DNA from: an uncultured Ruminococcus sp.
GTDB taxonomy: Bacteria > Bacillota > Clostridia > Oscillospirales > Acutalibacteraceae
NCBI GenBank assembly: GCA_902792115.1
Contig: CADAYJ010000031.1
Coordinates: forward strand, 1-54,440
Length of the DNA: 54,440 nucleotides
Direction of reading: 5' to 3'
Shown: positions 3,513-20,350 of the stretch, in pieces
Position numbering within the stretch: position 1 is the first letter of the stretch
How the letters are laid out: every line of letters starts with the position of its first letter
The notes under the pieces: generated by a model
The model's input: the letters and a program-made list of their open reading frames with translations, nothing else
Told to the model about the DNA's origin: nothing
The model's database searches: none
Program-made: the position numbers and the translations under genes

Positions 3513-4138
3513 ATGATATATGCAATAGAAATGTATTTCGATAAAAAAACAGAGAAAAAATAATGGATCTGGCAGAAAAAGTTGCCGATAACGGTTTAAG
3601 CACTAAGGAGGCACTGATTAAATCGAGTGCCCATATCGCGCAGTCAGATTTTCAGGCAGGTTGCACGAAATGACCGCAGTAATACTGACGTATTTCAAGG
3701 GAATGGAAAACAAGACCTCACGTTACGCTTGCCGTGTTCAATGATGTTGATGAGGAAAAATGTACAAGGCTGCTTGAAAAGTTTGCAAACGAACACAAAG
3801 CCTTTACCGCTTATCTTGACTCCGTGGGAATGTTCAACGACACGAAGACTATTTTCCTTTCGCCTACTATGACGAGAAGTATGTATGATCTGCACAGTGA
3901 GCTTTATGATCTGATGGAGGAGTTTGATAAGAGCGGCTGGGAATGGTATCAGCCTGACGGATGGGTGCCGCATTGCACAGTAGCTCTGACATCGGAAGAT
4001 GAGGAAGATGTTTTCTTCAAAGCGAGCGACCTTATCCTGCATGAATTTACGAAGATAGAAGGTACGTATTCCTCCGTAGGACTCGTAAAGATCACGTTCC
4101 CGGTAGAGGAGCTTACCGCATTTGAATTTTCTGAGTGA
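3513..4138 (+). pseudogene. 2H phosphoesterase (2'-5' RNA ligase-like), disrupted
   Basis: The C-terminal part (open from 3692, with a GTG at 3734) resembles the 2H phosphoesterase/2'-5' RNA ligase superfamily, with a second HxT motif in PHCTVAL. The matching first HxT motif (PHVTLAV) is encoded at about 3716-3736 in the same frame but upstream of any good start. A plausible true start is the ATG at 3513 (MIYAIEMYFDKKTEKK), which stops at 3561 because an A-run (3555-3560) appears one base short. After that shift the frame reads IMDLAEKVADNGLSTK up to the inserted repeat (3605-3700), which adds an in-frame TGA at 3671. Beyond the repeat the same frame resumes as EWKTRPHVT. The gene therefore has two lesions, a 1-base frameshift and an inserted element. 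A sequencing error could explain the first but not the second. The exact substrate of the intact family member is not known to me. Confidence 0.78.
3605..3700. mobile_element. MITE-like interspersed repeat, copy 1
   Basis: These 96 bases align without gaps to 20214-20309, with about 80 identical positions by eye. Shared blocks include CACTGATTAAATCGAGTGCC and AATACTGACGTATTTCAAGG. The interior is an imperfect palindrome (GTCAGATTTT near 3643 against AATACTGACG near 3681). No open reading frame for a transposase lies within it. It sits inside the 2H phosphoesterase gene, interrupting a frame that is recognisable on both sides, which supports mobility. The right inverted end seen in copy 2 is absent here, so this copy is a shorter or truncated form. 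Confidence 0.75.
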
Positions 4139-4162
4139 TAATGTAGTTTTGTTTATGCTTTT

Positions 4163-4192
4163 AAAAGAACAGGCTCGTCCTGTTCTTTTTTT
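4163..4192 (+). terminator. Intrinsic terminator
   Basis: AAAGAACAGG and CCTGTTCTTT form a ten-pair stem around a four-base loop, followed by a run of seven or more T. It separates the broken 2H gene from the spoIIIA genes. Confidence 0.9.
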
Positions 4193-4228
4193 ATGCCTGT
4201 CTGCATATAATCTATTGAGGTGAGTAAG

Positions 4229-5137
4229 ATGTGTGAGTCAATACTGAGGATAACCGATCTTGTATCTCCCGTTCTGACTGCTGCTTTGCTCCCTCACATT
4301 GATGATCTTTGTGAAGTGCGTGTTCGTGCGGACAGACCGATCGTTGTATATATACTTATGTTACCGTATTATGTGAAGGCAGACGGGACTCTCTCTTCCT
4401 GTAAGTGCGAAGATCTTCTTACAGTATCATTTGAAAGACTCAGGGATATCTTTTCTGCTCTGTGTGAATATTCGGTGTACAAGCATCTTGATAACGCCGC
4501 AAACGGCTTTGTGACTTTTTCGGGAGGTCATCGTATCGGTGTGTGCGGTTCTGCCGTTACGGAAGGCGGCAAAGTCGTGTCGGTCTGTGATGTGACAAGT
4601 CTCAATATACGTGCCGCAAGGCAGATAAGAGGCTGCTCTGATATTCTTTTTGACAGCGGCGATCTTAGCCGGGGTATTCTTCTTTGCGGCGCTCCGTCCT
4701 CGGGCAAAACGACGATCCTTCGTGATACTGCGAGAGTGTTGTCTGTATGTAAGCAGAAAAAGGTTGCAGTAATTGACGAGCGACTGGAAATATCATCATG
4801 CTTCAGCGGTCACTGCGGTTTTGATATCGGACTTTCGGATGTTTACTGCGGTTATCCCAAAAGTACGGCAATAGTACTTTCAGTGCGTACAATGTCGCCC
4901 GATTATATCATCTGTGACGAGCTTACGGGCGATGACTGCGAGGCTGTTTCGGTGTGCTTCAACTGCGGAGCTGCGATAATAGCAGCCGTTCACAGTGACT
5001 CACTGTCGGCTGCAAAAAACAATCAAACTGTCAGAAAGCTGATGAGTACAGGCGCATTTTCGAGGATCGTTTTTCTTGACGGTCGTATCCCTGCCGGAGT
5101 TTCCGGAGTTATAAAAACTGAGGAGTTTTTTAAATGA
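4229..5137 (+). CDS. spoIIIAA: Stage III sporulation protein AA (SpoIIIAA ATPase)
   Basis: Cytoplasmic ATPase of the mother cell, thought to power the SpoIIIA-SpoIIQ channel between mother cell and forespore. A Walker A motif GAPSSGKT lies at about residues 154-161, and the region around RTMSPDYIICDEL (residues ~226-238) fits the Walker B/secretion-ATPase part. The ATG at 4229 is preferred because TTGAGGTGAG at 4215-4224 is a well-placed ribosome binding site; the GTG at 4220 lies inside that site. Length is 302 aa, close to the family norm. It overlaps spoIIIAB by four bases (ATGA). Codon use looks less GC-rich than in the next two genes. Confidence 0.93.
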   Translation: MCESILRITDLVSPVLTAALLPHIDDLCEVRVRADRPIVVYILMLPYYVKADGTLSSCKCEDLLTVSFERLRDIFSALCEYSVYKHLDNAANGFVTFSGGHRIGVCGSAVTEGGKVVSVCDVTSLNIRAARQIRGCSDILFDSGDLSRGILLCGAPSSGKTTILRDTARVLSVCKQKKVAVIDERLEISSCFSGHCGFDIGLSDVYCGYPKSTAIVLSVRTMSPDYIICDELTGDDCEAVSVCFNCGAAIIAAVHSDSLSAAKNNQTVRKLMSTGAFSRIVFLDGRIPAGVSGVIKTEEFFK

Positions 5138-5634
5138 AGCATATCGGGCTTCTTCTTATGTTTTCTGCGGTCGCTATGATAGGCGGAACGTGCGTGTCAC
5201 GGCTTCATGAACGTGTCAGGCTGTTGAAGGCTTTCAGATCACAGATACTTTCTGTAAAACGCAGGTTATCAGTCGGCAGACCATCATTTTACGAGCTTTT
5301 TGACAAATGTGATGATGCTTTTATCTATCCCTTTTTTGACATTATAAGTCAGCAGATGAAAAAAGGAAAGCCGCCTGATGAGGCTGTCAAGAAAGCGTTT
5401 AATTGTGCTGATGGAGCCCGGCTTTTAAAGCGGGACGAGCGTGAGGTGCTTTCCGGATGTTTTGCGTCGATCTCGATTTCGGATATTGCCACCGCCCTCA
5501 GAATACTCGACAACGCTTGTAAGGAGCTTGATACTTATATAGAACGGGCGACGGCTGAAGAACGTAAAAATGCAAAGCCGGTTATGTCTGTGGCGGTCTA
5601 CATAGGGCTTGCCGCTGTTATTTTATTATGGTGA
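5134..5634 (+). CDS. spoIIIAB: Stage III sporulation protein AB
   Basis: Membrane protein of the SpoIIIA complex, made in the mother cell. The 166-aa product has an N-terminal hydrophobic segment (about residues 3-20), a helical basic middle (RLLKAFRSQILSVKRRLSVG) and a C-terminal hydrophobic segment ending in ILLW, which matches the family's type II secretion GspF-like outline. It overlaps spoIIIAA by four bases and is followed 10 bases later by spoIIIAC, so translation is probably coupled. Identification rests on the topology and on its place between AA and AC. Confidence 0.9.
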   Translation: MKHIGLLLMFSAVAMIGGTCVSRLHERVRLLKAFRSQILSVKRRLSVGRPSFYELFDKCDDAFIYPFFDIISQQMKKGKPPDEAVKKAFNCADGARLLKRDEREVLSGCFASISISDIATALRILDNACKELDTYIERATAEERKNAKPVMSVAVYIGLAAVILLW

Positions 5635-5644
5635 GGTGTGAACA

Positions 5645-5839
5645 ATGGACATCGAGATTTTGTTCAAAATAGCCGCTGTCGGGATCATCGTCTCCGTGCT
5701 CGGACAAGTCCTTGCGAGAGCCGGACGCGACGATCAGGCAATGCTCACGGCTCTCGCCGGTCTCGTGATCGTCCTCACAATGGTGATACGCGAGGTCAGC
5801 AAGCTGTTTACGACCGTGAAATCTCTCTTCGGGCTGTGA
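5645..5839 (+). CDS. spoIIIAC: Stage III sporulation protein AC
   Basis: Small 64-aa membrane protein of the SpoIIIA channel. Two hydrophobic helices are visible (FKIAAVGIIVSVLGQVLA and MLTALAGLVIVLTMVI) with a short polar turn RAGRDDQA between them, the typical SpoIIIAC layout. A GTGAGGTG site stands before the ATG. The stop TGA overlaps the spoIIIAD start (TGATG). The DNA is visibly more GC-rich than spoIIIAA-AB just upstream. Confidence 0.93.
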   Translation: MDIEILFKIAAVGIIVSVLGQVLARAGRDDQAMLTALAGLVIVLTMVIREVSKLFTTVKSLFGL

Positions 5840-6234
5840 TGATGATAAATATTGTCTCCGTCTGCGTCCTTGCCGTCTTCGCCGTGATCCTTGGCGCAGC
5901 GCTCAGAAAGGAAAACGGCGAGATTGCGGCGCTCCTGCTGACGGCCGCCGCCGTATTGATCGCCTTCGCCGCCGTGCCCTACGTTCAGCGCGTTACGGAG
6001 CAGCTGTCGGAGCTGTCGGAGCAGGCCGCCGTCAAAGCGGAATATATGCAGGCTCTTGTCCGCGCCGTCGGGATATGCGTCCTCACCCGCACCGGCGCCG
6101 ATATTTGCCGCGAAAACGGCGGTCAGTCAGCCGCGTCCGGCGTCGAGCTGTTCGGCAGGCTCGCCGTTTTGCTGATCGCCTGTCCGCTTTACGCCGATCT
6201 TATCAAAACGGTCGGTGCATTTCTTTCACAGTAA
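5839..6234 (+). CDS. spoIIIAD: Stage III sporulation protein AD
   Basis: Membrane protein of the SpoIIIA complex, 131 aa from the ATG at 5839 (a second ATG follows directly at 5842). Hydrophobic stretches occur at about residues 4-22, 31-50, 75-90 and 108-128. Like AC it is GC-rich and Ala-rich. The overlap with the spoIIIAC stop fixes the start. In most spore formers AE, AF, AG and AH follow; here the next 165 bases hold no recognisable spoIIIAE and a new promoter for an unrelated small gene appears, so the operon is cut short. Confidence 0.9.
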   Translation: MMINIVSVCVLAVFAVILGAALRKENGEIAALLLTAAAVLIAFAAVPYVQRVTEQLSELSEQAAVKAEYMQALVRAVGICVLTRTGADICRENGGQSAASGVELFGRLAVLLIACPLYADLIKTVGAFLSQ

Positions 6235-6338
6235 ACCGATGCTGCCGCAGCTTTGGGAATTGAGTGTAAAGCATTATGCGCCGTATCAATCGCCCGGCAA
6301 ATTTTTGTATTGCAAGATCCGCCGCCGAACCGCCTGCC

Positions 6339-6366
6339 TTGCTTTTTTTTTAAAATGTGTTATAAT
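6339..6366 (+). promoter_or_regulatory. Sigma-A-type promoter
   Basis: TTGCTT (6339-6344) and TATAAT (6361-6366) with a 16-base T/A-rich spacer. It lies 34 bases before the ATG of the Cys-rich small protein and likely drives it and the PLP enzyme that follows. Confidence 0.75.
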
Positions 6367-6399
6367 ATATCAGAATGGTCGAAAAAAGGAGGCGACGGA

Positions 6400-6585
6400 A
6401 TGAAAAAGCAGAAGTCAAACTGCGATTACTGCGTCAATTACTCGTACAACGAGGAGTACGACTGCTACGAATGCGTCATTGACCTCGATGAGGACGAAAT
6501 GTACAGCTTCATGAATCATGAATACAGAAGCTGCCCGTACTTCCGCCTCGGAGACGAGTATAAGATCGTGCAAAAACAAAACTAA
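6400..6585 (+). CDS. Small Cys-rich conserved protein (DUF6472-like)
   Basis: A 61-aa acidic protein with a CDYC pair near the N-terminus, then CYECVIDLDEDEM and a late CPYF. The spaced cysteines suggest a small metal-binding fold. The layout resembles short Firmicutes proteins I recall as DUF6472, which have no known function. The start is fixed by AAAGGAGG eight bases upstream and by the promoter at 6339-6366. It stands 12 bases before the PLP enzyme gene, and the two are probably cotranscribed. The function is not known. Confidence 0.8.
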   Translation: MKKQKSNCDYCVNYSYNEEYDCYECVIDLDEDEMYSFMNHEYRSCPYFRLGDEYKIVQKQN

Positions 6586-6597
6586 GGAATGTGTCAG

Positions 6598-7920
6598 ATG
6601 GATAATTCAATGTACAGCAGACTCGGCATCGGCAGTGAGGTGCTCGCGTTCTGCGAAAAGACGCTCGCCGAGCTTGAGCCGCGCTTTAAGAAGATCGACG
6701 AAACTGCCGAGTATAACCAGCTGAAGGTCATTTCGGCAATGCAGGAAAACCGCGTAAATGCTGCGTGCTTCGCCGCGACAACAGGATACGGCTACGACGA
6801 CGCCGGCCGCGACAATCTCGAAAGAGTGTACGCCTCCGTTTTCGGAACGCAGGCGGCTCTCGTGCGTCCGCAGATAACGTGCGGCACTCACGCCCTCGCC
6901 GTTGCGCTTTCGGCGATACTCCGCCCCGGAGACACGCTGCTGTCGCCGGTCGGCAAGCCGTACGATACGCTCGAGGAGGTCATCGGCATCAGAGAGTCGA
7001 AATGCTCCTTGAAGGAATTCGGCGTGAATTACGCGCAGGTCGATCTCCTTCCCGACGGCTCCTTTGACCTTGACGGAATCAGAGCCGCTATAAACGAAAC
7101 TACGAAAATGGTCACGATCCAGCGCTCCAAGGGCTACCAGACGCGCCCTACGCTCTCCGTTGAACGTATCGGCGAGCTGATCGCGTTCGTGAAGTCCGTA
7201 AAGCCCGACATTATCTGCATGGTTGACAACTGCTACGGCGAGTTTGTCCAGAAGATCGAGCCGTCGGACGTCGGAGCAGATATGATCGTCGGATCGCTTA
7301 TCAAAAATCCCGGCGGCGGTCTTGCGCCGATCGGCGGCTACATATGCGGTACGAAGGAATGCGTTGAGAAATGTGCATACCGCCTCAGCGCTCCCGGACT
7401 CGGGCAGGAGGTCGGCGCAAATCTCGGCATAATGCCGGCGTTTTACCAGGGCTTTTTCATGGCTCCTACGGTCGTTGCAGGTGCGCTCAAGGGCGCCGTG
7501 TTCGCAGGTCTTTGCTATGAGAAGCTGGGTTTCAGGTGCGTTCCGAACGGTACGGAGGAGCGGTACGATATTATCCAGGCGGTCGAGCTTGGCTCCAGGG
7601 AGCGCATGGTCGCGTTCTGCCGCGGCATTCAGGCTGCGGCGCCTGTTGACAGCTACGTAACGCCCGAGCCTTGGCCTATGCCGGGCTATGATTCCGACGT
7701 CATCATGGCGGCAGGCGCGTTCGTGCAGGGCTCCAGCATCGAGCTTTCCGCAGACGGCCCGATCAAGGAGCCGTACGCCGTCTATTTTCAGGGCGGCCTG
7801 ACGTGGTACCACGCGAAGCTCGGAATAATGATGTCGCTCCAGAAGCTCTTTGAAAAGGGCTTGATCGAGCTGCAAAAAAAGAGACTCCCCGGCGGAGTCC
7901 CTTTTTTATCTTTTGCGTAA
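6598..7920 (+). CDS. Methionine gamma-lyase family PLP-dependent protein
   Basis: Member of the PLP-dependent Met_gamma_lyase group (often annotated as aluminium resistance protein), a fold-type I enzyme with uncertain substrate. Visible family features are TTGYGYDDAGRDNLERVYA, the cofactor region VRPQITCGTHALA, DNCYGEF, and a probable PLP lysine in SLIKNPGGGLAP. The ATG at 6598 is preferred because AAGGA at 6584-6588 has a 9-base spacing to it; the ATG at 6589 touches that site. The product is 440 aa. The last ~15 residues (KKRLPGGVPFLSFA) are encoded by an intrinsic terminator hairpin, so the normal stop codon seems to have been lost and the tail is probably non-functional. Confidence 0.9.
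   Translation: MDNSMYSRLGIGSEVLAFCEKTLAELEPRFKKIDETAEYNQLKVISAMQENRVNAACFAATTGYGYDDAGRDNLERVYASVFGTQAALVRPQITCGTHALAVALSAILRPGDTLLSPVGKPYDTLEEVIGIRESKCSLKEFGVNYAQVDLLPDGSFDLDGIRAAINETTKMVTIQRSKGYQTRPTLSVERIGELIAFVKSVKPDIICMVDNCYGEFVQKIEPSDVGADMIVGSLIKNPGGGLAPIGGYICGTKECVEKCAYRLSAPGLGQEVGANLGIMPAFYQGFFMAPTVVAGALKGAVFAGLCYEKLGFRCVPNGTEERYDIIQAVELGSRERMVAFCRGIQAAAPVDSYVTPEPWPMPGYDSDVIMAAGAFVQGSSIELSADGPIKEPYAVYFQGGLTWYHAKLGIMMSLQKLFEKGLIELQKKRLPGGVPFLSFA
7874..7907. terminator. Terminator inside the 3' end of a coding sequence
   Basis: GACTCC (7883-7888) and GGAGTC (7894-7899) form a stem flanked by A7 and T6, so it can act on both strands. It serves the convergent genes at 6598-7920 (+) and 7939-8238 (-). 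It lies wholly within the open frame of the plus-strand gene. Confidence 0.85.
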
Positions 7921-7938
7921 TTTTTGATATACCGGCCT

Positions 7939-8238
7939 CTACTTGATGATAACGGGGATTACCTCGATCTCGTGCCACGCGATAGCGCAGGGGACAGGTT
8001 CGTCTCCGTCAACGCTTACCGTGTCGAACAGAACGGTGTAGAAAACGCCGTCCTCGCCGAGACAGATCGGCTCACGATCCGAAAAATTCTTGAGAAGCTC
8101 GTTTGCGTAGGACATACCCTTTTCGTTCACGATGGCATTGTATATCTTTCTGTCCGTGATCGTGGCGTGCTCCTCTGAGATGCGGTAGCCCCTCTTGAGA
8201 AGCGGCACATCCTCTCTGTTCATAATTGTAAAGATCAT
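7939..8238 (-). CDS. Hypothetical protein, 99 aa
   Basis: I do not recognise this protein. It is a small soluble-looking product without signal peptide or membrane segment, with phrases such as EKGMSYANELLKNFSDREP and a hydrophobic C-terminus (EIEVIPVIIK). An AAGGAGC site stands about seven bases before the ATG on the minus strand. It converges on the methionine gamma-lyase-like gene with the bidirectional terminator between them, which supports its being a real transcription unit. Confidence 0.7.
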   Translation of the reverse strand: MIFTIMNREDVPLLKRGYRISEEHATITDRKIYNAIVNEKGMSYANELLKNFSDREPICLGEDGVFYTVLFDTVSVDGDEPVPCAIAWHEIEVIPVIIK

Positions 8239-8449
8239 TTTTTCAGCTCCTTCTGCAAAGATTGATTCCCATGATCATTTTACCATATTTTTTTTACGAA
8301 AACAATACTGATTTTCGATATTCTTACAATTTATACTGCCAATTTTGGTATGCAGCCGTTTTTTAATGGGTATGATCCGGTTTTTGTGGTGCCGGGTGAC
8401 ACGTAATTCTTACAGATTTGTTGATAACTTGTAAAAACAATAAAAGCGA

Positions 8450-8478
8450 TTGACTTTTTTTTGCACGAGTGATACAAT
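8450..8478 (+). promoter_or_regulatory. Sigma-A-type promoter
   Basis: TTGACT (8450-8455), 17-base spacer, TACAAT (8473-8478). It is the likely promoter of the P-loop ATPase and 2-oxoacid oxidoreductase operon. The rest of 8239-8534 is AT-rich and shows no gene. Confidence 0.8.
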
Positions 8479-8534
8479 GAACTTTAGGCTATATCCGGGC
8501 AAGGATTTTTGCCGCGATATTTCGGGAGGCGGTC

Positions 8535-9206
8535 TTGCTTTTGTTTGATTCAAAAAGGATTACGCTGCTCGCCGGTCACTACGGCAGCGGCAAAACGAAT
8601 ATCGCCGTCAACTGGGCGAAATATCTGCGCGAAACTATTGATCGCGTCTGCGTCGCTGATCTCGATATCGTCAACCCGTACTTCCGCACGAAGGACAGCG
8701 CGGAGGATTTCAGGCAGTGGGGCATACGGCTGATCTCGTCGGAGTATGCGAACTCCAACGTCGATTTTCCCGCGCTTCCGCAGGAGCTGTATTCGATAGT
8801 TGACGACAAGAGCTTTCACGCTGTGATCGACGTTGGCGGAGATGACAGAGGCGCGTTTGCGCTCGGCCGCTACGTTCCTCGGATACTTGAGGAAAACGAC
8901 TATGAGCTGCTGCTCGTTATCAACCGCTACCGTCCGCTGACGCCGGACTGCGAGTCCGTCGTCGGTATCAAAAACGAGATCGAGGCGGCGTGCCGCATGA
9001 AATTTACGGCGATAGTGAACAACTCAAACCTCGGGCGTGAGACTACGGCGCAGACGGTGCTGGATTCGCTGCCGTTTGCCGTGGAGGTCTCAAAGGCGAC
9101 GGGGCTTCCCGTAAAAATGACGACGGTTGAAGACAGATTATACAGTGAATTAAAGGATAAAATAGACGGCTTGTTCCCTCTGACATTACAGAGCAAGCTG
9201 ATTTAG
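8535..9206 (+). CDS. P-loop ATPase (MinD/CobQ-type), lead gene of oxidoreductase operon
   Basis: Predicted 223-aa cytoplasmic nucleotide-binding protein. The Walker A motif GHYGSGKTN lies at residues ~14-22, followed by ADLDIVNPYF, which resembles the switch I region of the MinD/ArsA/CobQ SIMIBI class, and AVIDVGGDD as a Walker B-like element. The start is a TTG at 8535, five bases after GGGAGG; another TTG at 8541 is possible. It is 11 bases from the ferredoxin-type subunit of the 2-oxoacid:ferredoxin oxidoreductase and shares its promoter. A role in assembly or metal/cofactor insertion for that complex is an inference from position only. Confidence 0.8.
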   Translation: MLLFDSKRITLLAGHYGSGKTNIAVNWAKYLRETIDRVCVADLDIVNPYFRTKDSAEDFRQWGIRLISSEYANSNVDFPALPQELYSIVDDKSFHAVIDVGGDDRGAFALGRYVPRILEENDYELLLVINRYRPLTPDCESVVGIKNEIEAACRMKFTAIVNNSNLGRETTAQTVLDSLPFAVEVSKATGLPVKMTTVEDRLYSELKDKIDGLFPLTLQSKLI

Positions 9207-9217
9207 GAGGTATTGAT

Positions 9218-9424
9218 GTGCCAAAGGTTACGATTGATTCCAACGCCTGCAAGGGCTGCGGACTGTGTGTAAGCGTGTGCCCGAAGAAGATCCTCAGAAT
9301 GTCCGAGGAAAAGATGAACAAGAAGGGTATGCACTACGCAGAAATGACAGATGAAGAGAAGTGCATCGGGTGCGCCTTCTGTGCGATGATGTGTCCCGAC
9401 TGCGTTATCAGAGTTGAAAGGTAG
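9218..9424 (+). CDS. 2-oxoacid:ferredoxin oxidoreductase, 2x[4Fe-4S] delta subunit
   Basis: A 68-aa ferredoxin-like subunit with two cluster motifs, CKGCGLCVSVCP and CIGCAFCAMMCP. It relays electrons from the TPP active site to ferredoxin in four-subunit VorABCD/KorABCD-type enzymes. The start is GTG at 9218, supported by GGAGGT about 9 bases upstream; an ATG at 9216 is in another frame. It is followed immediately by the alpha subunit. Confidence 0.93.
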   Translation: MPKVTIDSNACKGCGLCVSVCPKKILRMSEEKMNKKGMHYAEMTDEEKCIGCAFCAMMCPDCVIRVER

Positions 9425-9433
9425 GTGCTGAGA

Positions 9434-10504
9434 ATGTCTGAAAAGGTGCTTATGAAGGGCAACGAGGCGATCGCCGAAGCTGCGATCCGTTCGGGCTGCC
9501 GTTTTTATCTCGGCTATCCGATAACTCCGCAAACGGAGGTCGCCGCTTATATGGCAAAGCGTATGCCGAAGATCGGCGGTACGTTCCTGCAGGCCGAGAG
9601 CGAGCTTTCGGCGATAAATATGGTCTACGGCGTAGCCTCCGCCGGAAAACGCTGCATGACGTCCAGCTCCAGCCCGGGAATCTCTCTGAAGTGCGAGGGC
9701 TTATCTTACCTTGCGGCCTGTGACCTTCCCTCCGTAATCGTAAATGTTCAGCGCGGAGGTCCCGGCCTCGGCGGCATTCAGCCGTCGCAGTCCGATTATT
9801 TCCAGGCGACAAAGGGCTCCGGTCACGGTGATTTCCGCATGATCGTTCTCGCCCCGTCGTCCGTCCAGGAGATGGCGGATCTCACGTCGCTCGCCTTTGA
9901 CCTCGCGGACAAGCACAGAATGCCTGCAATGATCCTCGCCGACGGTACGATCGGTCAGATGATGGAGCCTGTGGAGCTTGCCGAGGATATGCACGCGACG
10001 CAGTACGAAAAGCCGTGGGCGTGCACCGGCACGAAGCTGGAGCGCGGGCATAATATCATAAATTCGCTTATCCTCAAGCCGGAGATACTCGAACGCCTCA
10101 ACATCGAGCGCTACGAAAAGTACAAGATCGTTGAGAGCGAAGAGGTTCGCTATGAGGAATATATGATGGACGACGCCGAAATATGTATCGTAGCCTTCGG
10201 CATCGCTTCGCGCGTCGCGAAGTCCGCGATCATGGAGGCGAGAAAGCAGGGCGTCAAGGTCGGTCTTATCCGCCCGATCACGCTCTGGCCGTTCCCTGCC
10301 GAGCCGATCAGAGCGGCTGCCGATAAGGTGAAGGCGTTTATCTCCGTCGAGCTTTCGATGGGACAGCTCATTTACGATGTCCGCCTTGCGTCGGAGTGCA
10401 AAAAGCCCGTTCATCTGTGCAGCAGAGTCGGCGGCATGATAACGTCGCCTGACTATGTGCTTAAAAAGATACTTGAAGTCAATGAAATGGGAGGTGCTGT
10501 CTGA
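9434..10504 (+). CDS. vorB: 2-oxoacid:ferredoxin oxidoreductase alpha subunit (VorB/KorA type)
   Basis: Catalytic alpha subunit of an enzyme that oxidatively decarboxylates a 2-oxoacid to acyl-CoA and reduces ferredoxin. The [14 protein letters not shown] motif is typical of the N-terminal pyrimidine-binding domain, and the length (356 aa from the ATG at 9434) fits the short VorB/KorA form rather than fused pyruvate enzymes. ATG 9434 is preferred over the GTG at 9425 because the GGTAGGTG site then has normal spacing. The stop overlaps the beta subunit start by one base. Substrate (branched-chain 2-oxoacid or 2-oxoglutarate) cannot be decided from sequence alone. Confidence 0.93.
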
Positions 10505-11795: not shown

Positions 11796-11905
11796 CGGTT
11801 CGCTTCAAAATATACATTTTCGCTTATTTTTGGGTGAATAATCTTAGAATAATAAGAAATAAAAGAGAAAAAATCAATTTTATTTACTAAATTATTATAA
11901 ATTTA

Positions 11906-11934
11906 TTGACTTTTAACGAGAAAAATCTTATAAT
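11906..11934 (+). promoter_or_regulatory. Sigma-A-type promoter of secDF
   Basis: TTGACT (11906-11911), 17-base spacer, TATAAT (11929-11934), in a strongly AT-rich stretch. It should start transcripts near 11941, giving a leader of about 140 bases before secD. Confidence 0.8.
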
Positions 11935-12080: not shown

Positions 12081-12081
12081 C

Positions 12082-13491: not shown

Positions 13492-14440
13492 GATGCTCGA
13501 TTTCTTCGGAAAGAAAAAGATTTTCTTCGGCATTTCCCTCGGAATTATTGCTATCGGTATTATTTTCAATATCATCTTCGGAGTATCGCTCGATATCCAG
13601 TTCTCCGGTGGCTCGATGATCTCCTACTCTTACAGCGGAGAGGTCAACGAGGACGAGATGAAGGCTCTTATCCAGGAGAAGACTCCCGACGATAAGGTAA
13701 CGTTCACGATCGCAAAGGATATCGCTTCCAACAGCGATAAGGGCGACGGCTATACGCTCACAGTTCAGTTCTCCGGAACGGACGCGATCAGCACAGAGCT
13801 GCAGTCCGACATTCTCCAGTCCCTGCGCGAGAAATATCCCGACAACAACTTCGATACGAACGAGTTCACTTCCGTTGACGCGACGATGGGCCTTAAATTC
13901 TTCGTCAAGTGTCTCGTCGCTGTTGCTATCGCCTGCGTACTCATGGTTATCTACGTCACGATCCGATTCAAGAGGATCGGCGGTATGTCGGCAGGTATGT
14001 TCGGTCTCGTCGCTCTCTTCCACGATATCATCATGGTTTACGTCGTCTTCGTTCTGTTCAGAATGCCGATCGACAGTAACTTCATCGCAGTCGTCCTCAT
14101 GATCCTCGGCTACTCCCTCAACGATACGATCGTTATCTACGACCGTATCAGAGAGAACAAGGCTAAGATGGGACCGAAGGCTTCTCTCGTTGATATCTAC
14201 AACCTCAGCATGACGCAGTGCATCAAGAGAACGGTAATGACGTCCATCACGACTCTTGCAGCTATCACCTCTGTTTACGTAGTCTGCCTCGTATACAACA
14301 TCACATCTATCCAGAGCTTTGCTCTCCCGATGATGATTGGTCTTGTATCGGGCTGCTATTCCTCTATCTGCATCGCGACGCCGCTTTGGGTTATCTGGCA
14401 GCTTCACAAGAGAAAAAAGGAAGCAGAAAAGAAAGCATAA
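13481..14440 (+). CDS. secF: Protein translocase subunit SecF
   Basis: Partner of SecD in the cytoplasmic membrane. The 319-aa protein starts with a helix (FFGISLGIIAIGIIFNIIFGV), then the P1-like loop beginning with DIQFSGGSMISYSY, and five more helices containing GYSLNDTIVIYDRIREN, the SecF signature. The ATG at 13481 is chosen because GGAGGTG lies eight bases upstream; the GTG at 13472 lies within that site. Its first codons overlap the secD end. Gene order secD-secF and a terminator just downstream indicate a two-gene operon. Confidence 0.97.
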   Translation: MKDKMLDFFGKKKIFFGISLGIIAIGIIFNIIFGVSLDIQFSGGSMISYSYSGEVNEDEMKALIQEKTPDDKVTFTIAKDIASNSDKGDGYTLTVQFSGTDAISTELQSDILQSLREKYPDNNFDTNEFTSVDATMGLKFFVKCLVAVAIACVLMVIYVTIRFKRIGGMSAGMFGLVALFHDIIMVYVVFVLFRMPIDSNFIAVVLMILGYSLNDTIVIYDRIRENKAKMGPKASLVDIYNLSMTQCIKRTVMTSITTLAAITSVYVVCLVYNITSIQSFALPMMIGLVSGCYSSICIATPLWVIWQLHKRKKEAEKKA

Positions 14441-14452
14441 TTTAAGCATTTA

Positions 14453-14484
14453 CAGCCTCCGCTTTTTTGGCGGGGGCTGATTTT
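14453..14484 (+). terminator. Terminator after secDF
   Basis: CAGCCTCCGC (14453-14462) pairs with GCGGGGGCTG (14470-14479) across a T-rich loop, followed by ATTTT. Confidence 0.85.
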
Positions 14485-14590
14485 GTCGGAGAATCCGGCA
14501 GAGGAAAACCGGCTGCACCGTCTCCGCTGTGAGGCGGTGCATATCATTTTCTGCGAGCTTACCCTCCGCAGTAACATTTTTTCGGTCTCC

Positions 14591-14599
14591 TGCTATAAT
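14591..14599 (+). promoter_or_regulatory. Extended -10 promoter candidate for the spoVM pair
   Basis: TGCTATAAT is an extended -10 element with no convincing -35 box. A sporulation sigma site (sigma-E or sigma-K) would be expected for spoVM but I could not find a clear match. Starts from here would give a leader of about 95 bases. Confidence 0.4.
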
Positions 14600-14700
14600 G
14601 TAGTAAGGGCAACACCGAACAAAGGCTGCGTATGCTCGCCGCGATCTCTGAGCGGTATTGTCCGAGGAGTTTTCCGAAAGCGCTTGTGAGGTGAGACCGT

Positions 14701-14844
14701 ATGTGCCGCAGAAACTGCGTTTCAAAATGCGTGCTCTCGTTCGGCTTGGGAATGGTCGTGTCGTCATTCTTCGGCAAAGGCGTCGCCCTGTTCCTTGTGG
14801 GCGCGGCGGCCGTGATACTTTCCTTTGCCCTTCGTGAGCGCTGA
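14701..14844 (+). CDS. Small membrane protein, 47 aa
   Basis: A short gene with GAGGTGAG five to six bases before the ATG. The product begins MCRRNCVSKC with three cysteines in ten residues and then has a long hydrophobic stretch (residues ~11-43) broken by SSFFGKG, so one long or two short membrane helices. It ends in LRER. I do not recognise the family. It lies 18 bases upstream of the spoVM-like gene and they probably form one unit, so a sporulation role is possible but unproven. Confidence 0.6.
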   Translation: MCRRNCVSKCVLSFGLGMVVSSFFGKGVALFLVGAAAVILSFALRER

Positions 14845-14862
14845 TTATAGGGAGGTCAGCTT

Positions 14863-14955
14863 ATGAAATTCATCGTGATCGACAATCCGCGCTTTTTAGC
14901 GCCCGTTCTCAGGCGGATGTTCAAGATCAGGAAATCAAAGGATACGTCCCTCTAG
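14863..14955 (+). CDS. spoVM: SpoVM-like sporulation micro-protein, 30 aa
   Basis: A 30-residue peptide with a strong GGGAGG site eight bases before its ATG. It begins MKFIVIDNPRFLAPVLRRMF and lines up with Bacillus subtilis SpoVM (26 aa) as I recall it: MKF, Ile6, Pro9, a basic residue at 10, Phe11-Leu12 and Arg17 match in position. SpoVM is an amphipathic helix that senses the curved forespore membrane and anchors SpoIVA for spore coat assembly. Pro9 is known to matter in SpoVM. The C-terminus here is longer and rich in Lys. Genes this short are usually missed. The presence of spoIIIA genes in the window agrees with a spore former. Confidence 0.72.
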   Translation: MKFIVIDNPRFLAPVLRRMFKIRKSKDTSL

Positions 14956-15004
14956 AAAGCTGTGCGTCGGTTCCGCTGTCGGTACCGGCGCGCTTTGTTA
15001 TTTA
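14956..15004 (+). terminator. Probable terminator after spoVM
   Basis: An imperfect stem joins AAAGCTGTGCGTCGGT (from 14956) with ACCGGCGCGCTTT (to 14998), followed by GTTATTTAT. The T-run is weak. Confidence 0.5.
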
Positions 15005-15111
15005 TACCCAACTTTTGAAGGCATACAGCTTTTCTATTGGATAATATGATATACATACACATATGACCGGAGCTTATTTTGTAATTTTTTTCGCCCTGCG
15101 TCAAAAAAATC

Positions 15112-15140
15112 TTGATACATGGAGCAAAAAATGGTATAAT
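15112..15140 (+). promoter_or_regulatory. Sigma-A-type promoter of aspS-gatCAB
   Basis: TTGATA (15112-15117), 17-base spacer, TATAAT (15135-15140). No T-box motif is recognised in the ~70-base leader, which is too short for one. Confidence 0.8.
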
Positions 15141-15213
15141 ACAAATAATTGTGAGTAATGATGGGGCAGCTTTGCCTCCTTTACGTAAAAATCGCATGAA
15201 AGGGCAGAGAAAT

Positions 15214-16962
15214 ATGACGAGAGAAAATCAGTATCGCACGCACAACTGCGGTGAGCTTCGCGAGAGCGACATCGGCAAGGACGTTAGAGTTGCAGGCTGG
15301 GTTGAGAATATACGCGACCACGGCGGCGTTATGTTCCTTGATATACGCGACCAGTACGGTGTAGTTCAGGTGGTCGTGCATGACGATAATTTGCTGAAGG
15401 GCATAAATAGAGAGTGTACAGTGACAGTAGCCGGCAAGGTCGTCAAGAGAGACGAGGAGACGATCAACCCGAAGATCGCCACCGGTATGGTAGAGGTACA
15501 TACCGAGACGATCAGAGTTCTCGGCAAGTGCAAGGTAAACCTTCCCTTTGAGGTAAGCTCCGCAAAGGACGTAAAGGAGGAGGTACGTCTCAAGTACCGT
15601 TTCCTCGACCTTCGCAATAAGAAGAATCACGACAACATCGTCCTCAGAAGCGAGATCGTTTCCTATCTCCGCTCTCAGATGAACGAGATGGGCTTTATTG
15701 AGATATCGACTCCGATCCTCTCCACATCTTCTCCCGAGGGCGCGAGAGATTATCTTATCCCCAGCCGCAAGCACAAGGGCAAGTTCTACGCTCTTCCGCA
15801 GGCTCCGCAGATCTTCAAGCAGCTTCTGATGGTCTCCGGCTTCGACAAGTATTTCCAGATCGCTCCCTGCTTCCGCGACGAGGACGCAAGGGCGGACCGT
15901 TCCCCGGGCGAGTTCTATCAGCTCGATTTTGAAATGGCATTCGCTGAGCAGGAGGACGTTTTCGCGGTAGCCGAGCAGGTGCTCTACAACACCTTTAAGA
16001 AATTCGGCGGCGGCAAGGAGGTTAGCAAGCCCCCGTTCAAGCGCATTCCTTACAAAGAGGCAATGATCAAGTACGGCACGGACAAGCCCGACCTCAGAAA
16101 TCCGCTCGTTATCACCGATATATCCGATATGTTCGTTGAGACGGACTTCAAGCCCTTCTGCGGCAAGACTGTCCGCGCGATCAATGTTCCGGACTGTGCA
16201 GGCCAGTCAAAGAGCTGGTTCAAGAAGATGGAGGAATTCGCTCTTTCCATCGGTATGAAGGGCCTCGGCTACGTCAAGGTCAGAGACGATATGACGTTTG
16301 ACGGCCCGATCGACAAATTCCTTCCCGCCGAGGACAAGCTCGCTCTTATCGAGCGCACAGGTCTCAAGCCCGGCGCTGTCTGCTACTTCATCGCAGACAC
16401 GGCAGAGGAAGCTCCGAAGCTCGCAGGTCAGATCAGAACAGAGGTCGCAAGCCGCCTCGGCATCATTGACGAGAGCCGCTTTGAGCTTTGCTTTATCGTA
16501 GATTTCCCGATGTACGAGTACGACGACGACGGAAAGGTGATCTTCACCCACAACCCGTTCTCGATGCCGCAGGGCGGTCTCGAGGCGCTCGAGACGATGA
16601 ACCCCGTCGATATCCTCGCTTATCAGTACGACATCGTCTGCAACGGCGTAGAGCTTTCCTCCGGCGCCGTCAGAAACCACGACGTCGAGATTATGAAGAA
16701 GGCGTTCGATATCGCAGGATACAGCGAGGACGAGCTTAAAGCAAAGTTCACCGCGCTCTACAATGCTTTCCAGTACGGTGCGCCGCCGCACGCAGGCATG
16801 GCACCCGGCGTAGACAGAATGATAATGCTGCTCACGGGCGAGGAGAATATCCGCGAGATCATCGCGTTCCCGATGAACAGCAACGCGCAGGATCTCCTTC
16901 TCGGTTCGCCGGGAGAGGTAACGGAGCAGCAGCTTCGCGAGGTCCACATCAAATTAAGATAA
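15214..16962 (+). CDS. aspS: Aspartyl-tRNA synthetase, probably non-discriminating
   Basis: Class II synthetase that charges tRNA-Asp and, in non-discriminating form, also tRNA-Asn. The 582-aa length with an inserted GAD domain (about residues 290-420) is the bacterial type. The anticodon-binding OB domain carries RDHGGVMFLDIRD; a His in the RDHGG position is, from published work on Pseudomonas AspRS as I recall it, linked to relaxed tRNA choice, where E. coli has RDLGS. Motif 2 (FRDEDARADRSPGEFYQLD) and motif 3 (GMAPGVDRMIML) are intact. ATG 15214 is chosen because family members begin near MTRENQYRTHNCG. gatC, gatA and gatB follow at once, which fits conversion of Asp-tRNA-Asn to Asn-tRNA-Asn. 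Confidence 0.95.
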   Translation: MTRENQYRTHNCGELRESDIGKDVRVAGWVENIRDHGGVMFLDIRDQYGVVQVVVHDDNLLKGINRECTVTVAGKVVKRDEETINPKIATGMVEVHTETIRVLGKCKVNLPFEVSSAKDVKEEVRLKYRFLDLRNKKNHDNIVLRSEIVSYLRSQMNEMGFIEISTPILSTSSPEGARDYLIPSRKHKGKFYALPQAPQIFKQLLMVSGFDKYFQIAPCFRDEDARADRSPGEFYQLDFEMAFAEQEDVFAVAEQVLYNTFKKFGGGKEVSKPPFKRIPYKEAMIKYGTDKPDLRNPLVITDISDMFVETDFKPFCGKTVRAINVPDCAGQSKSWFKKMEEFALSIGMKGLGYVKVRDDMTFDGPIDKFLPAEDKLALIERTGLKPGAVCYFIADTAEEAPKLAGQIRTEVASRLGIIDESRFELCFIVDFPMYEYDDDGKVIFTHNPFSMPQGGLEALETMNPVDILAYQYDIVCNGVELSSGAVRNHDVEIMKKAFDIAGYSEDELKAKFTALYNAFQYGAPPHAGMAPGVDRMIMLLTGEENIREIIAFPMNSNAQDLLLGSPGEVTEQQLREVHIKLR

Positions 16963-16980
16963 CGGAAAGGACGATGATCC

Positions 16981-17262
16981 ATGGTCACCCGTGAGGACGT
17001 AATTAACATCGCCAGACTCTCCAAGCTGTATATCGCCGAGGAGGAGCTTGACGAAATGACAAAGGCAATGGGCGATATCATCAAATTTGCCGATACGATA
17101 AACGTCGCCTCCGAGCAGGGCGTAGAGGAGTTTGACAACATCAACAACCTCAAAAATGCTTTTCGCGAGGACGTCGTCGTTCCCTCGTATGAAAGGGACG
17201 AAATTCTTAAAAACGCAAATGACATTGACGAGGGACACTTCCTCGTTCGCAAGAGGGTGTAA
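16981..17262 (+). CDS. gatC: Asp/Glu-tRNA amidotransferase subunit C
   Basis: A 93-aa helical subunit that wraps around and stabilises GatA-GatB. The opening TREDVINIARLSKLYIAEEE and the FADTINVASEQGVE region are typical. A GGAAAGGA site precedes the ATG. It lies 18 bases after aspS and three bases before gatA. Confidence 0.95.
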   Translation: MVTREDVINIARLSKLYIAEEELDEMTKAMGDIIKFADTINVASEQGVEEFDNINNLKNAFREDVVVPSYERDEILKNANDIDEGHFLVRKRV

Positions 17263-17265
17263 GCT

Positions 17266-18732
17266 ATGGCAGAGGGAATGATCAAGCGCTTGGGCAGTAT
17301 GCTCGAAAACAAGGAGATATCCTGCACCGAGCTTACAAATACTTACCTATCGGCTATCGAAAGCGCTAACGGCGACCTCAACGCTTACATAAAGGTCACG
17401 CCGGAGGCGGCTCTCGACACCGCAAAAGCGGTTGACGAGAAGCTCGCAAGGGGAGAGCAGCTCGCTCCTCTCGAGGGAATTCCGATGACGCTGAAGGACA
17501 ATATCTCCACAAAGGGGATCGAGACGACTTGCTGCTCGAAGATACTCGAAGGCTATAAGCCGATCTACGACGCGACCGTCTGGGCGGAGCTTAAAAAGAG
17601 CAATGCGGTGCTTCTCGGCAAGACGAACATGGACGAGTTCGCAATGGGTTCGTCCTGCGAGACGTCATGCTTCGGCGGCGCCTCCAATCCTCACGATATC
17701 GGACGTGTGGCAGGCGGCAGCTCCGGCGGCGTAGCTTCTGCCGTCGGCGGCAATATCGCGGCGTACGGCCTCGGCTCCGATACGGGAGGATCTATCCGTC
17801 AGCCCGCGAGCTTCTGCGGAATAGTCGGTCTGAAGCCGACGTACGGCTCCGTTTCCCGTTACGGTCTTATCGCGTACGCTTCGAGCTTCGATCAGATCGG
17901 ACCGATCACAACGACGGTCGAGGACGCTTCGATCGTTTACGACGCGATCTCCGGCTACGACGCGATGGACTCCACGAGCCAGGGACGCAGGGGAGAGCCT
18001 ACGGTCAAGACTCTTAAAAATGACATCAAGGGCATGAAGATCGGCGTTGCCGACGAATACCTCGACGGCGTAAGCGACGAGGTGCGCTCCGTATTTGAAA
18101 AGGCGTGCGAGGTTTACCGTTCGCTCGGCGCGGAGATAGTTCGCTTCAAGCTGCCGTCGCTCAGATACGCACTGCCTGTTTACTATATTTTGGCGTGCGC
18201 GGAGGCGTCCTCTAACCTCGGACGTTACGACGGTATCCGCTACGGCTACCGCACCGCAAACTACAAGGACGTCAACGAAATGGTCTGCAAGACGAGAAGC
18301 GAGGGCTTCGGCGCCGAGGTTAAGCGCAGGATCCTTCTCGGTACATACGTTCTTTCCGCAGGTTATTACGACGCATACTACAAGAAGGCGCAGAACCTCC
18401 GCGGCTCGATCGTGAAGGCGTTCAAGGACGCATTCGAGACCTGTGATGTGATCCTCGCGCCGACCGTTCCTATGACTGCGTTCAAAAAGGGCAACGCGAT
18501 CAGCGATCCCATCGAGACGTATCTCACCGATATCTGCACCGTTCCCGTGAATATCGCGGGGCTTCCCGGAGTCAGCATTCCGTGCGGCTTTGACGGCGAG
18601 GGTATGCCGATCGGTATGCAGCTTATCGGCGATACGTTCTGTGAAAGCACTATCCTCAACGCCGCGTGGCAGTATGAAAACGCTGCCGGCGCAGAGGTAT
18701 TCAAGCCGTCTGCATACGGCGTAAAGCTATAA
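17266..18732 (+). CDS. gatA: Asp/Glu-tRNA amidotransferase subunit A
   Basis: The amidase that releases ammonia from glutamine for transamidation of Asp-tRNA-Asn or Glu-tRNA-Gln. The 488-aa protein has the amidase signature: the catalytic Lys in TLKDNIS (residues ~75-81), and the two serines in GGSSGGVASAVGG and GSDTGGSIRQPASFCG. Length is normal. It sits between gatC and gatB in one operon with aspS. Confidence 0.97.
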   Translation: MAEGMIKRLGSMLENKEISCTELTNTYLSAIESANGDLNAYIKVTPEAALDTAKAVDEKLARGEQLAPLEGIPMTLKDNISTKGIETTCCSKILEGYKPIYDATVWAELKKSNAVLLGKTNMDEFAMGSSCETSCFGGASNPHDIGRVAGGSSGGVASAVGGNIAAYGLGSDTGGSIRQPASFCGIVGLKPTYGSVSRYGLIAYASSFDQIGPITTTVEDASIVYDAISGYDAMDSTSQGRRGEPTVKTLKNDIKGMKIGVADEYLDGVSDEVRSVFEKACEVYRSLGAEIVRFKLPSLRYALPVYYILACAEASSNLGRYDGIRYGYRTANYKDVNEMVCKTRSEGFGAEVKRRILLGTYVLSAGYYDAYYKKAQNLRGSIVKAFKDAFETCDVILAPTVPMTAFKKGNAISDPIETYLTDICTVPVNIAGLPGVSIPCGFDGEGMPIGMQLIGDTFCESTILNAAWQYENAAGAEVFKPSAYGVKL

Positions 18733-18745
18733 GGAGGGAAGGATC

Positions 18746-20158
18746 ATGCAATACGAGATGGTCGCAGGCTTCGAGACACACGTGGAGCTTGCTACGAATA
18801 CGAAGATTTTTTGCTCCTGCACAACACAGTTCGGCGGTGATCCCAATACGCACTGCTGCCCGATCTGTATCGGTCTGCCCGGCGTTCTGCCGAAGCTGAA
18901 CCGCGCAGTCGTACAGTACGCGATCAGAGCAGGACTTGCGACGAACTGTCATATCGCCAATATCTCAAAAATGGACAGAAAGAACTACTGCTACCCCGAC
19001 CTTCCGAAGGCATATCAGATCTCGCAGTACGACAAGCCGCTCTGCGAGAACGGCTATGTGCAGCTTTCAAACGGCCGCAGGATCCGACTCAACAGGATCC
19101 ACATCGAGGAGGACGCAGGCAAGCTGATCCACAAGAGAGGCGATACTTACATTGACTATAACCGCGGCGGCGTGCCGCTTATTGAGATCGTTTCCGAGCC
19201 TGATATCCGCTCCGTCGAGGAGGCAAAGGAGTATGTAGAAAAGCTGCAGCAGATCATGCGCTACATCGGAGTCTCCGACTGCCGTATGCAGGAGGGCAGT
19301 ATGCGCTGCGACGTCAACGTATCCGTCAGACCTGTCGGCAGCGACAAGCTCGGAACGAGAACGGAGATCAAGAATATGAACTCCATCACATTCATCGGCA
19401 AGGCTATGGAATACGAGTTCAACCGCCAGGTCGAGCTTATCGAATCCGGCGGCGAGGTAGAGCAGCAGACTCTCCGCTACAACGACTCCGAGAACACAAC
19501 GTCGCCGATGCGCGGCAAGGAGGACGCTAACGACTACCGCTACTTCCGCGATCCCGACCTCGTGACGATCAGTGTCTCCGACGAGGAGATCGACGAGCTG
19601 AGAAAGACGATCCCGGAGCTTCACTTTGAGAAGGTAGAGCGCTACGTCGGGCAGTTCTCGCTCTCCGAGAAGGATGCGTCGAATATAGCTAAATACAGAA
19701 GGATCGCAGAGTTCTTCGAGCAGGCGTCGGACGGCGTCAAGAATCCGAAGACCGTCGCGAACTTCATCATCGGACAGATCTTCCGCCGCCTTGAGACTGA
19801 GGACGACAAGGAGTCGTTCGATATCAAAACGACGGCCGCTCAGCTTCGGGAGCTTGTGAAGCTCATCGACGACGGCAAGATCAGAAACAATCTCGCAAAG
19901 TCAACTCTCGAGCAGATGCTCGACACCGGCAAGCCGGCTTCCGAGTTTATCTCAGAAAGCGATATGGCAGGTCTCGACGAGAGCGCTCTCGAGGGACTCT
20001 GCCGCAAGGCCGTGGAGTCGAACCCGAAGGCTGTTGAAGACTTCAAAAAGGGCAAGCAGAAGGCTGTAAAGTCTCTTGTAGGCTTCGTAATGAAGGAAAG
20101 CCGAGGCAAAGCTGACGCCGCTGCAGCAGAGCAGCTCATAATATCAATAATCGGATAA
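18746..20158 (+). CDS. gatB: Asp/Glu-tRNA amidotransferase subunit B
   Basis: The kinase/tRNA-binding subunit that activates the misacylated tRNA and performs transamidation. The 470-aa product starts YEMVAGFETHVELATNTKIFC and contains NRGGVPLIEIVSEPD and KNMNSITFI, with zinc ligands in the CSCTTQFGGDPNTHCCPIC region. The C-terminal YqeY-like tail domain (about residues 325-470) binds the tRNA elbow. AAGGAGG lies upstream of the ATG. Last gene of the operon. Confidence 0.97.
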   Translation: MQYEMVAGFETHVELATNTKIFCSCTTQFGGDPNTHCCPICIGLPGVLPKLNRAVVQYAIRAGLATNCHIANISKMDRKNYCYPDLPKAYQISQYDKPLCENGYVQLSNGRRIRLNRIHIEEDAGKLIHKRGDTYIDYNRGGVPLIEIVSEPDIRSVEEAKEYVEKLQQIMRYIGVSDCRMQEGSMRCDVNVSVRPVGSDKLGTRTEIKNMNSITFIGKAMEYEFNRQVELIESGGEVEQQTLRYNDSENTTSPMRGKEDANDYRYFRDPDLVTISVSDEEIDELRKTIPELHFEKVERYVGQFSLSEKDASNIAKYRRIAEFFEQASDGVKNPKTVANFIIGQIFRRLETEDDKESFDIKTTAAQLRELVKLIDDGKIRNNLAKSTLEQMLDTGKPASEFISESDMAGLDESALEGLCRKAVESNPKAVEDFKKGKQKAVKSLVGFVMKESRGKADAAAAEQLIISIIG

Positions 20159-20164
20159 AATAAC

Positions 20165-20213
20165 GCAGGTGCAAAGGGTATCCTCTGCACCTGCTTGCCG
20201 TACCTGCATTTTT
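20165..20213 (+). terminator. Hairpin after gatB
   Basis: GCAGGTGCA (20165-20173) pairs with TGCACCTGC (20186-20194). A second CCTGC followed by ATTTTT at 20203-20213 allows an alternative fold with a T-run. Termination is likely but not textbook. Confidence 0.6.
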
Positions 20214-20350
20214 AGGGAGACACTGATTAAATCGAGTGCCAAAATTGCGCCGTCAGATTTTGCGGCAAATTGGACGAAAGAGCCGCCGGAATACTGACGT
20301 ATTTCAAGGCTTTTCTCAGTCCGCAGGACGTGATTTATTCAGTGTTTCCT
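20214..20350. mobile_element. MITE-like interspersed repeat, copy 2
   Basis: The first 96 bases (to 20309) match copy 1 at 3605-3700. This copy also has a right end: 20331-20350 read in reverse complement gives AGGAAACACTGAATAAATCA, close to the left end AGGGAGACACTGATTAAATC at 20214-20233, so it has imperfect terminal inverted repeats. An inner inverted repeat joins CGTCAG near 20252 and CTGACG near 20293, with GCGGC and GCCGC inside it. Length is about 137 bases with no coding capacity. It sits between the gatB hairpin and the permease gene, so it may also be part of that gene's leader. Confidence 0.75.

Follow-up and report, generated by a model that had tools for sequence, protein, structure and literature searches.

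Two short stretches of similar DNA lie far apart in the window analysed here, which covers positions 1 to 54,440 of contig CADAYJ010000031.1 (assembly GCA_902792115.1, an uncultured Ruminococcus sp.). One stretch (copy 1) lies inside a gene and the other (copy 2) upstream of a permease gene, and both resemble miniature inverted-repeat transposable elements (MITEs). The pair raises the question of what their palindromic body is: a structure kept at the DNA level for transposition, or one that works as RNA? We consider it probable that the two copies are members of a large superfamily of short non-autonomous elements, which have a strand-specific RNA body and are moved in trans by IS5-family transposases.

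A first-pass annotation of the window had recorded 96 similar bases with about 80 matches. BLAST bore this out, aligning 97 positions at 84% identity (C31:3604-3700 against query positions 9-105). The end pattern GGARNCACTGATTAAA, with up to 2 mismatches, was found at 3 places in the window where chance predicts 0.14, and the 25-base core, with up to 3 mismatches, at 2 places where chance predicts 0.00. A covariance model, R1, picked out these two places alone in the window, even with E up to 1. Searching the genome of origin (G000; 2.05 Mb in 114 contigs) and its relatives, as the annotation had advised, proved productive. BLAST gave 42 pieces matching copy 1 and 52 matching copy 2 in the genome of origin, some of them 98-99% identical at other places; these are pieces and not copies, the left and right parts of one element being counted apart. 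Such matches across the genome, together with the end-pattern and core counts above expectation, rule out chance similarity of the window copies. The end pattern matched 120 times in this genome against 3 for a reversed control, and 316 times against 1 in the relative G003. Matches occurred in 21 of 98 relatives other than the genome of origin, and in 17 of 21 within the genus, mostly several per genome. The annotation had left room for an ancestral RNA or a chance likeness in case all relatives carried the same two copies and no others, and this distribution contradicts that picture.

Extraction by a script returned 87 elements. The script required end repeats plus a duplication with at most one mismatch and hence cannot show how frequent duplication is; some of the limits that it set are wrong (e.g. 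starts TTTGA and CATCA). The elements are short, have no coding capacity and carry terminal inverted repeats. Their length is 171 or 172 bp in 48 of 87 and 158-172 bp in 64 of 87, and in 78 of 87 the distance from the left end to the start of the core is 72-75 bp. The left flanks of the 87 include TTAA (42), TTAG (8), TTAT (7), CTAA (4) and CTAG (3), among which TTAT falls outside YTAR. A 4-bp YTAR target duplication is typical of the IS5 group. The 4-bp duplications were also seen when the element limits were set by a profile, independent of duplication. The extraction rule passed 61 of 85 real cores versus 2 of 85 cores given a foreign right side. A more lenient partner-end test passed 76 of 86 cores, but it also passed 26 of 85 with a foreign right side, and we relied on the stricter extraction rule. 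Aligning the flanks, another step that had been advised, gave TTAG on both sides of copy 2 and the 4-bp YTAR rule in the family. With many matches at different places, terminal inverted repeats and the 4-bp duplication, the early description as MITE-like was justified, and the MITE label holds for both window copies.

The body of these elements is less variable than their ends. The exact 20-base core AATACTGACGTATTTCAAGG was present in at least 115 stretches of named genomes, and the 80 core matches listed came from Ruminococcus, Oscillospiraceae, Ruminococcaceae, Clostridiales and Clostridia records. Clostridiales bacterium NK3B98 and Ruminococcaceae bacterium P7 are two carriers whose records bear no MAG label. 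Many of these cores belong to short elements bounded by other ends (GGCAAYACCGCA, GGAACTGT, GGAATTGTCAAGAA, GGGCAGTTCTAAAA, GGGAATCTCTAATA, GGGTGTATCTGAAA, TTGCTCCGCCAA, AGTGTGTGTTAAAA and ACTGATCTCTGATTA). In all, the same rod-like hairpin with a near-constant tip was found in elements with about ten different ends; 17 examples fold as rods (-48 to -92 kcal/mol) with the same tip. Three parts make up the tip: a GCA/AA internal loop, which is asymmetric; a helix of 7 bp in which one G.U pair is favoured; and a loop that is usually UGAC. In members from outside the exact-core set the helix covaries (GGCATAC/GTATGTC, GGAATCC/GGATTTC and GGCAGGC/GCCTGTC), while GCAGG and UCAAG are mostly kept.

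Analysing covariation in an alignment of 18 diverse members, we observed two-sided changes in 13 of 21 pairs. For this alignment, 22 of 69 candidates were distinct; L150 and L003 were dropped, and L197 and L146 were left out. A larger set of 66 model-found members (60 loci) showed two-sided changes in 19 of 21 pairs. In this set, 93.7% of cells were paired, compared to 44.7-55.7% in slid structures, and the covariation score was 0.536, compared to 0.143 for shuffled alignments and 0.099-0.153 for slid structures. None of 500 shuffles reached the observed value on any of five measures.

The palindrome also distinguishes its two strands. We counted arm mismatches in an arm-to-arm DNA alignment whose score treats both strands alike, with the tip excluded. 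G.U mismatches outnumbered A.C by 388 to 48 in all 87 elements and by 362 to 36 in the 76 elements with plausible limits, where composition predicts 1.3-2.8:1. When the elements were grouped by their first five letters, 17 of 21 groups had more G.U than A.C, one the reverse, and three were tied. Loci that the model found in other genera supplied 31 rows, in which the ratio was 75:19, with 26 rows favouring G.U, none favouring A.C, and five even. The core strand folds more stably than its complement in 72 of 73 elements, by a mean of 24 kcal/mol, and non-paired positions are purine-rich on that strand (A.G 422 vs C.T 17). Such strand-specific conservation, together with the G.U excess, argues that the body works as RNA rather than as a DNA palindrome. 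Judged from the covariation and strand asymmetry in the sequences, the element body is probably a strand-specific structured RNA, which would be made by transcription of at least some copies. The suggestion that the repeats can form RNA hairpins was thus well founded, given the rod folds, the covariation and the core-strand preference. That many element types have the hairpin in common and not the ends, and that its conservation is on one strand, as in an RNA, lay beyond what the first-pass annotation could see.

Strand-specific folding would also be selected if the relevant fold were that of single-stranded DNA from the core strand, formed in replication or as a transposition intermediate. 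Consistent with this possibility, the core strand lay on the C-rich side in 85 of 132 elements (85:47, p 0.001, uncorrected, including for shared assemblies), so that orientation to replication may be non-random; the local coding orientation around the same 132 elements was even (69:63). This skew bias would be accounted for if the strand that folds better were being lost from the lagging-strand template. The tip speaks for RNA, however. In its helix, 55 of 66 rows have G.U as the second pair, and one stem position carries U.G more often than any other pair, while G.T is a poor pair in DNA. IS5-family DDE transposition is, to our knowledge, not known to need a folded single strand. We therefore regard a single-stranded DNA fold as improbable.

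If the body is RNA, does it serve the host? Insertions might be kept since the hairpin tunes the stability or processing of host mRNA, as has been proposed for ERIC and NEMIS, whose RNAs are reported to act so in the part of PMC2229807 drawn on here. In line with such a role, 120 of 122 elements lie outside open reading frames (ORFs), although the script counts gene-breaking insertions such as copy 1 as outside. A role on the sense strand of mRNA predicts an excess of upstream genes on the core strand, yet only 55 of 110 were so placed. With ORFs called by a simple script, the orientation was 55:55 for the upstream gene and 41:59 for the downstream gene. Neighbouring genes thus show no bias in orientation, which makes it unlikely that the RNA is retained in order to tune them; the cis-regulatory reading found no support in this test, and we consider a host regulatory RNA quite improbable.

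If the elements move in trans, insertion sequences (ISs) with the same ends should supply the transposase. We fetched IS5-type transposase loci (PF05598 in 8 of 25 genomes, PF01609 in 11 of 21) and scanned their surroundings for element ends. Three ISs were found. L214, in G003, is a DDE fragment ending in a type-A repeat, its other end lying off the contig. L205, in the genome of origin, is a 479-bp remnant with a type-A repeat at both ends, flanked by TTAG and CTAA. L209, in G015, is an IS of 1129 bp whose two ends fit the type-B pattern between TTAA/TTAA flanks and whose transposase is split over two frames; among the three, it alone combines two ends with a duplication. Against NCBIfam transpos_IS5_4, the proteins of L214 and L209 exceed the cut-off, while the L205 fragment stays below it (97.9 of 140 bits) with the same best family. 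IS5-family ISs of this kind thus share their terminal 14-16 bp with two end types, and L209 also shares the 4-bp target type. They carry a transposase and lack the hairpin core. The best core matches in L214, L205 and L209 had 8-9 mismatches; the MITE body therefore did not arise by internal deletion of any of these three ISs. End types other than A and B had no IS match in the 21-25 genomes searched with the two Pfam families. The search for an IS with the same ends, which the first-pass annotation had recommended, therefore gave partners in the genome of origin and in the genus, and its suggestion that a host transposase can move the repeats gains support, movement itself being what these shared ends imply.

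Could this be an ordinary MITE family, in which the palindrome is kept at the DNA level by arm-to-arm correction or as an aid to transposition, and the RNA fold is a by-product? The ends and target duplications are those of a DNA transposon, IS5-family partners exist, and orientation relative to genes is random, all of which such a family would show. Nevertheless, a DNA palindrome has no preferred strand. The roughly tenfold G.U excess over A.C, the stabler core strand in nearly every element and the purine-rich non-paired positions make this alternative very unlikely. An ancestral structured RNA, inherited in place and immobile, would fit the presence of the hairpin across the class, but it is refuted for the 172-bp form and extremely unlikely in general, in view of the target duplications, the gene uninterrupted in relatives and the near-identical copies at several places in one genome.

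Several points weigh against a mobile element with an RNA body. The 66-row alignment (A3) came from fitting to a model that favours pairing, and we selected the 60 loci from which its rows derive. When each family-position is counted once, the G.U:A.C ratio drops to 121:32. Because the first set of hairpins was gathered by the exact 20-base core, these 20 bases are constant in it by construction. This does not apply to the flanking CGC.GG or to the sets collected later with the model, where variation of the tip helix is seen. Among the IS partners, L205 has no direct duplication at its flanks, and of L214 a single end is visible. We found no carrier that has the hairpin together with a transposase gene, with 0 far partners among 86 cores within 6 kb. 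The lack of an orientation preference also argues against a simple cis-regulatory RNA.

Taking both sides together, we favour a mobile element whose body is RNA, and propose the following scheme. IS5-family transposases would recognise the element ends, seen here with their duplications, and move the elements in trans. The body would be a structured RNA read on one strand and not leftover IS sequence. From one element type to another the rod and tip are retained, but the sequences of the stem and of the terminal repeats differ. This pattern suggests that the RNA is the kept part and that the ends were adapted to whichever IS5-type transposase was available, IS partners being at hand for two end types. 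Copies that get transcribed would make the rod, and a conserved protein would bind the tip, which we think the most likely mode of action. Selection may act on the element and not on the neighbouring genes, for example by aiding mobilisation or tolerance, an idea that we put forward tentatively. More speculative, and rather doubtful, is the extension to the whole class, in which the RNA, not described before, would be the unit under selection: a protein-binding hairpin (a rod or a Y arm) that has persisted because it repeatedly adopts IS5-type ends and is active in its own mobilisation.

How do the two window copies fit this family? Copy 2 keeps both ends and a foldable rod, and copy 1 is a half-element interrupting a gene (Table 1). 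The first-pass annotation had seen imperfect terminal inverted repeats and an inner palindrome in copy 2; both were found, the right end with 1 mismatch. Its 137-base element is a real repeat, the limits of which had to be corrected to those of an internally shortened member of the 171-172-bp form. Model R1 scored copy 2 at 62.9 bits (E 1.7e-14). The RNA fold of 20215-20348 reached -53.7 kcal/mol (z -6.1), compared to -43.1 kcal/mol (z -4.4) for the opposite strand.

Table 1. Positions of the two element copies, their parts and the adjoining genes in the window.
Feature	Position	Strand	Basis
Copy 2, element with both ends, internally shortened (134 bp)	20216..20349	+ (core strand +)	Terminal repeats by pattern; TTAG/TTAG flanks; R1
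Copy 2, left target-site duplication TTAG	20212..20215	.	Read from sequence; 4-bp YTAR type is the family rule
Copy 2, right target-site duplication TTAG	20350..20353	.	Read from sequence; 4-bp YTAR type is the family rule
Copy 2, left terminal inverted repeat GGAGACACTGATTAAATC	20216..20233	+	Pattern search
Copy 2, right terminal inverted repeat GGAAACACTGAATAAATC	20332..20349	-	Pattern search, 1 mismatch
Copy 2, conserved hairpin tip GCCGGAATACTGACGTATTTCAAGG	20285..20309	+	1 mismatch to consensus; folds
Copy 2, tip helix GGAATAC/GTATTTC, loop TGAC	20288-20294/20299-20305	+	Folds
Copy 1, left half of element: tip present, right arm and right end missing	3607..3700	+	Pattern, core and R1 searches
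Target CTAA at copy 1 left junction	3603..3606	.	Gene uninterrupted here in relatives L276, L277
Copy 1, hairpin tip GCAGTAATACTGACGTATTTCAAGG	3676..3700	+	1 mismatch to consensus
5' piece of split 2'-5' RNA ligase-like gene	3513..3606	+	Comparison with uninterrupted relatives
3' piece of split 2'-5' RNA ligase-like gene (PF13563)	3701..4138	+	Comparison with relatives; domain match
Xanthine/uracil permease gene (PF00860), downstream neighbour of copy 2	20401..21774	+	Domain match

Both of the gene contexts first reported proved right. Copy 1 splits a 2'-5' RNA ligase-like gene, which was found in 2 of 20 other genomes searched and is uninterrupted in both (L276 and L277). Its 5' piece (window 3513-3606) is also frameshifted upstream of the copy 1 insertion, and the gene is thus broken on two counts. 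Copy 2 lies between gatB and the xanthine/uracil permease gene (PF00860). At eight same-genus gatB loci, seven were readable downstream (270-500 bases) and one was unreadable; none of the seven carried the ends or the core. The gene order at these loci differs from that in the window, with no permease match in the loci as fetched, so they are not clean empty sites for copy 2. The comparison with empty sites that had been called for therefore succeeded at the ligase gene and only partly at gatB, where loci without the element have another gene order.

The loss of the right side in copy 1 may be a real deletion, which would also have removed a few host bases, or an assembly effect. Several copies within contigs (L001, L007, L019, L026 and L029 of the genome of origin, and L111) likewise stop exactly after CAAGG, the right arm missing. 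At least nine contig ends in the genome of origin lie about 100 bp inside an element. Contig ends inside elements were seen in C18 (both ends), C25, C26, C35, C49, C74, C87 and C102. Since contigs end in this manner, the repeat fragments the assembly, and our copy counts are lower bounds.

Performing R1 searches, we checked how far the hairpin extends. In the order, 59 of 245 genomes (33 of 127 genera, 15 families) had matches at E up to 1e-4. A cut-off of 1e-5 gave 29 of 245 genomes in the class, of which 26 lie beyond the order; both counts include the genome of origin and weak, mostly uninspected matches, and the R1 E-values are rough. Type-A and type-B ends recur outside the order. Among 11 loci examined for ends, 6 had ends and a duplication (at most 1 mismatch), and L296 and L298 had the hairpin with no recognised ends. 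The end-finding script sometimes chose a wrong place (among them L265, L266, L269, L271, L272 and L299-L301), and those rows were unused for ends. A near-exact 25-base core occurred in 2 of 398 phylum genomes, one being the genome of origin. Its rarity across the phylum indicates that the letters vary more than the shape.

Some loci carry the hairpin in another setting. The elements in L251, L255, L258 and L260 are Y-shaped, about 275 bp long and bounded by inverted ends of about 23-25 bp, and the hairpin makes up one of their arms. L261, L267 and L274 are also Y-shaped, and in several Y forms the second arm has GGCGCCAGCC at its tip. A target duplication could not be established in the Y-shaped forms examined. 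L257 has two near-identical hairpins (1501-1595 and 1768-1862), 267 bp apart, with no recognisable ends.

Is the hairpin a known RNA? Rfam 15 gave no match on the window, and Rfam searches of 12 further loci, run with E up to 1, gave none over threshold on the elements. One sub-threshold overlap was seen, RF02452 in L274 (30.5 of 60 bits, E 0.63). We therefore rejected a known RNA family; T-box, tRNA, ZTP and microRNA matches lie beside the element. A phage or plasmid origin was also rejected, copy 2 matching none of 50,697 phage or 72,556 plasmid records. One IMG/VR viral contig (L244) carries the exact core. We found no published report of this hairpin in the open-licence literature.

MITEs are usually defined by their ends, and their bodies are taken as filler; in this family it is the ends that can be exchanged, and the body hardly changes. 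If our proposal is true, it would add to Clostridia a widespread structured RNA, often in several copies per genome, and supply a specific motif as a candidate for protein binding. The reason for the frequent hairpins of bacterial MITEs would then become testable. The repeat, which seems to move about in genomes of gut bacteria, may also explain the contig breaks in the assembly studied here.

How do these elements compare with known repeats? ERIC/IRU (RU-1) of Enterobacteria, as described in the portion of PMC2229807 used here, are MITE-like and co-transcribed with their neighbours, with a proposed effect on mRNA stability via RNA conformation. They too are short multi-copy repeats, known to us by description, and the likeness is one of architecture only; Rfam gave no relation between the two. 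They differ in that our elements have ends matching IS5-family copies, 4-bp YTAR duplications, and a single tip that about ten end types, from many families of one class, have in common. NEMIS/Correia of Neisseria is a MITE whose transcript stem-loop is proposed as an RNase III target (PMC2229807, same portion). Unlike the present elements, it is confined to one genus. Its ends differ from those described here, and we know of no tip common to several end types in it. The CIR repeats of Caulobacter are short, with a conserved RNA structure of two arms plus a linker and the terminal-loop motif GANTC, according to that portion of PMC2229807. The motif here is GCAGG...UCAAGG, and our Y-shaped forms resemble CIR in outline only. 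In Coxiella burnetii, QMITEs overlap small-RNA loci and have a very long palindromic RNA structure (PMC5896051, in the part used here). The QMITE2 'tip' is described there as more divergent in alphaproteobacteria, whereas the tip is the most conserved part here. As far as these portions of PMC2229807 and PMC5896051 go, the combination of a MITE with an RNA hairpin is shared with ERIC, NEMIS, CIR and QMITEs, and what appears to be new is one conserved tip under many ends.

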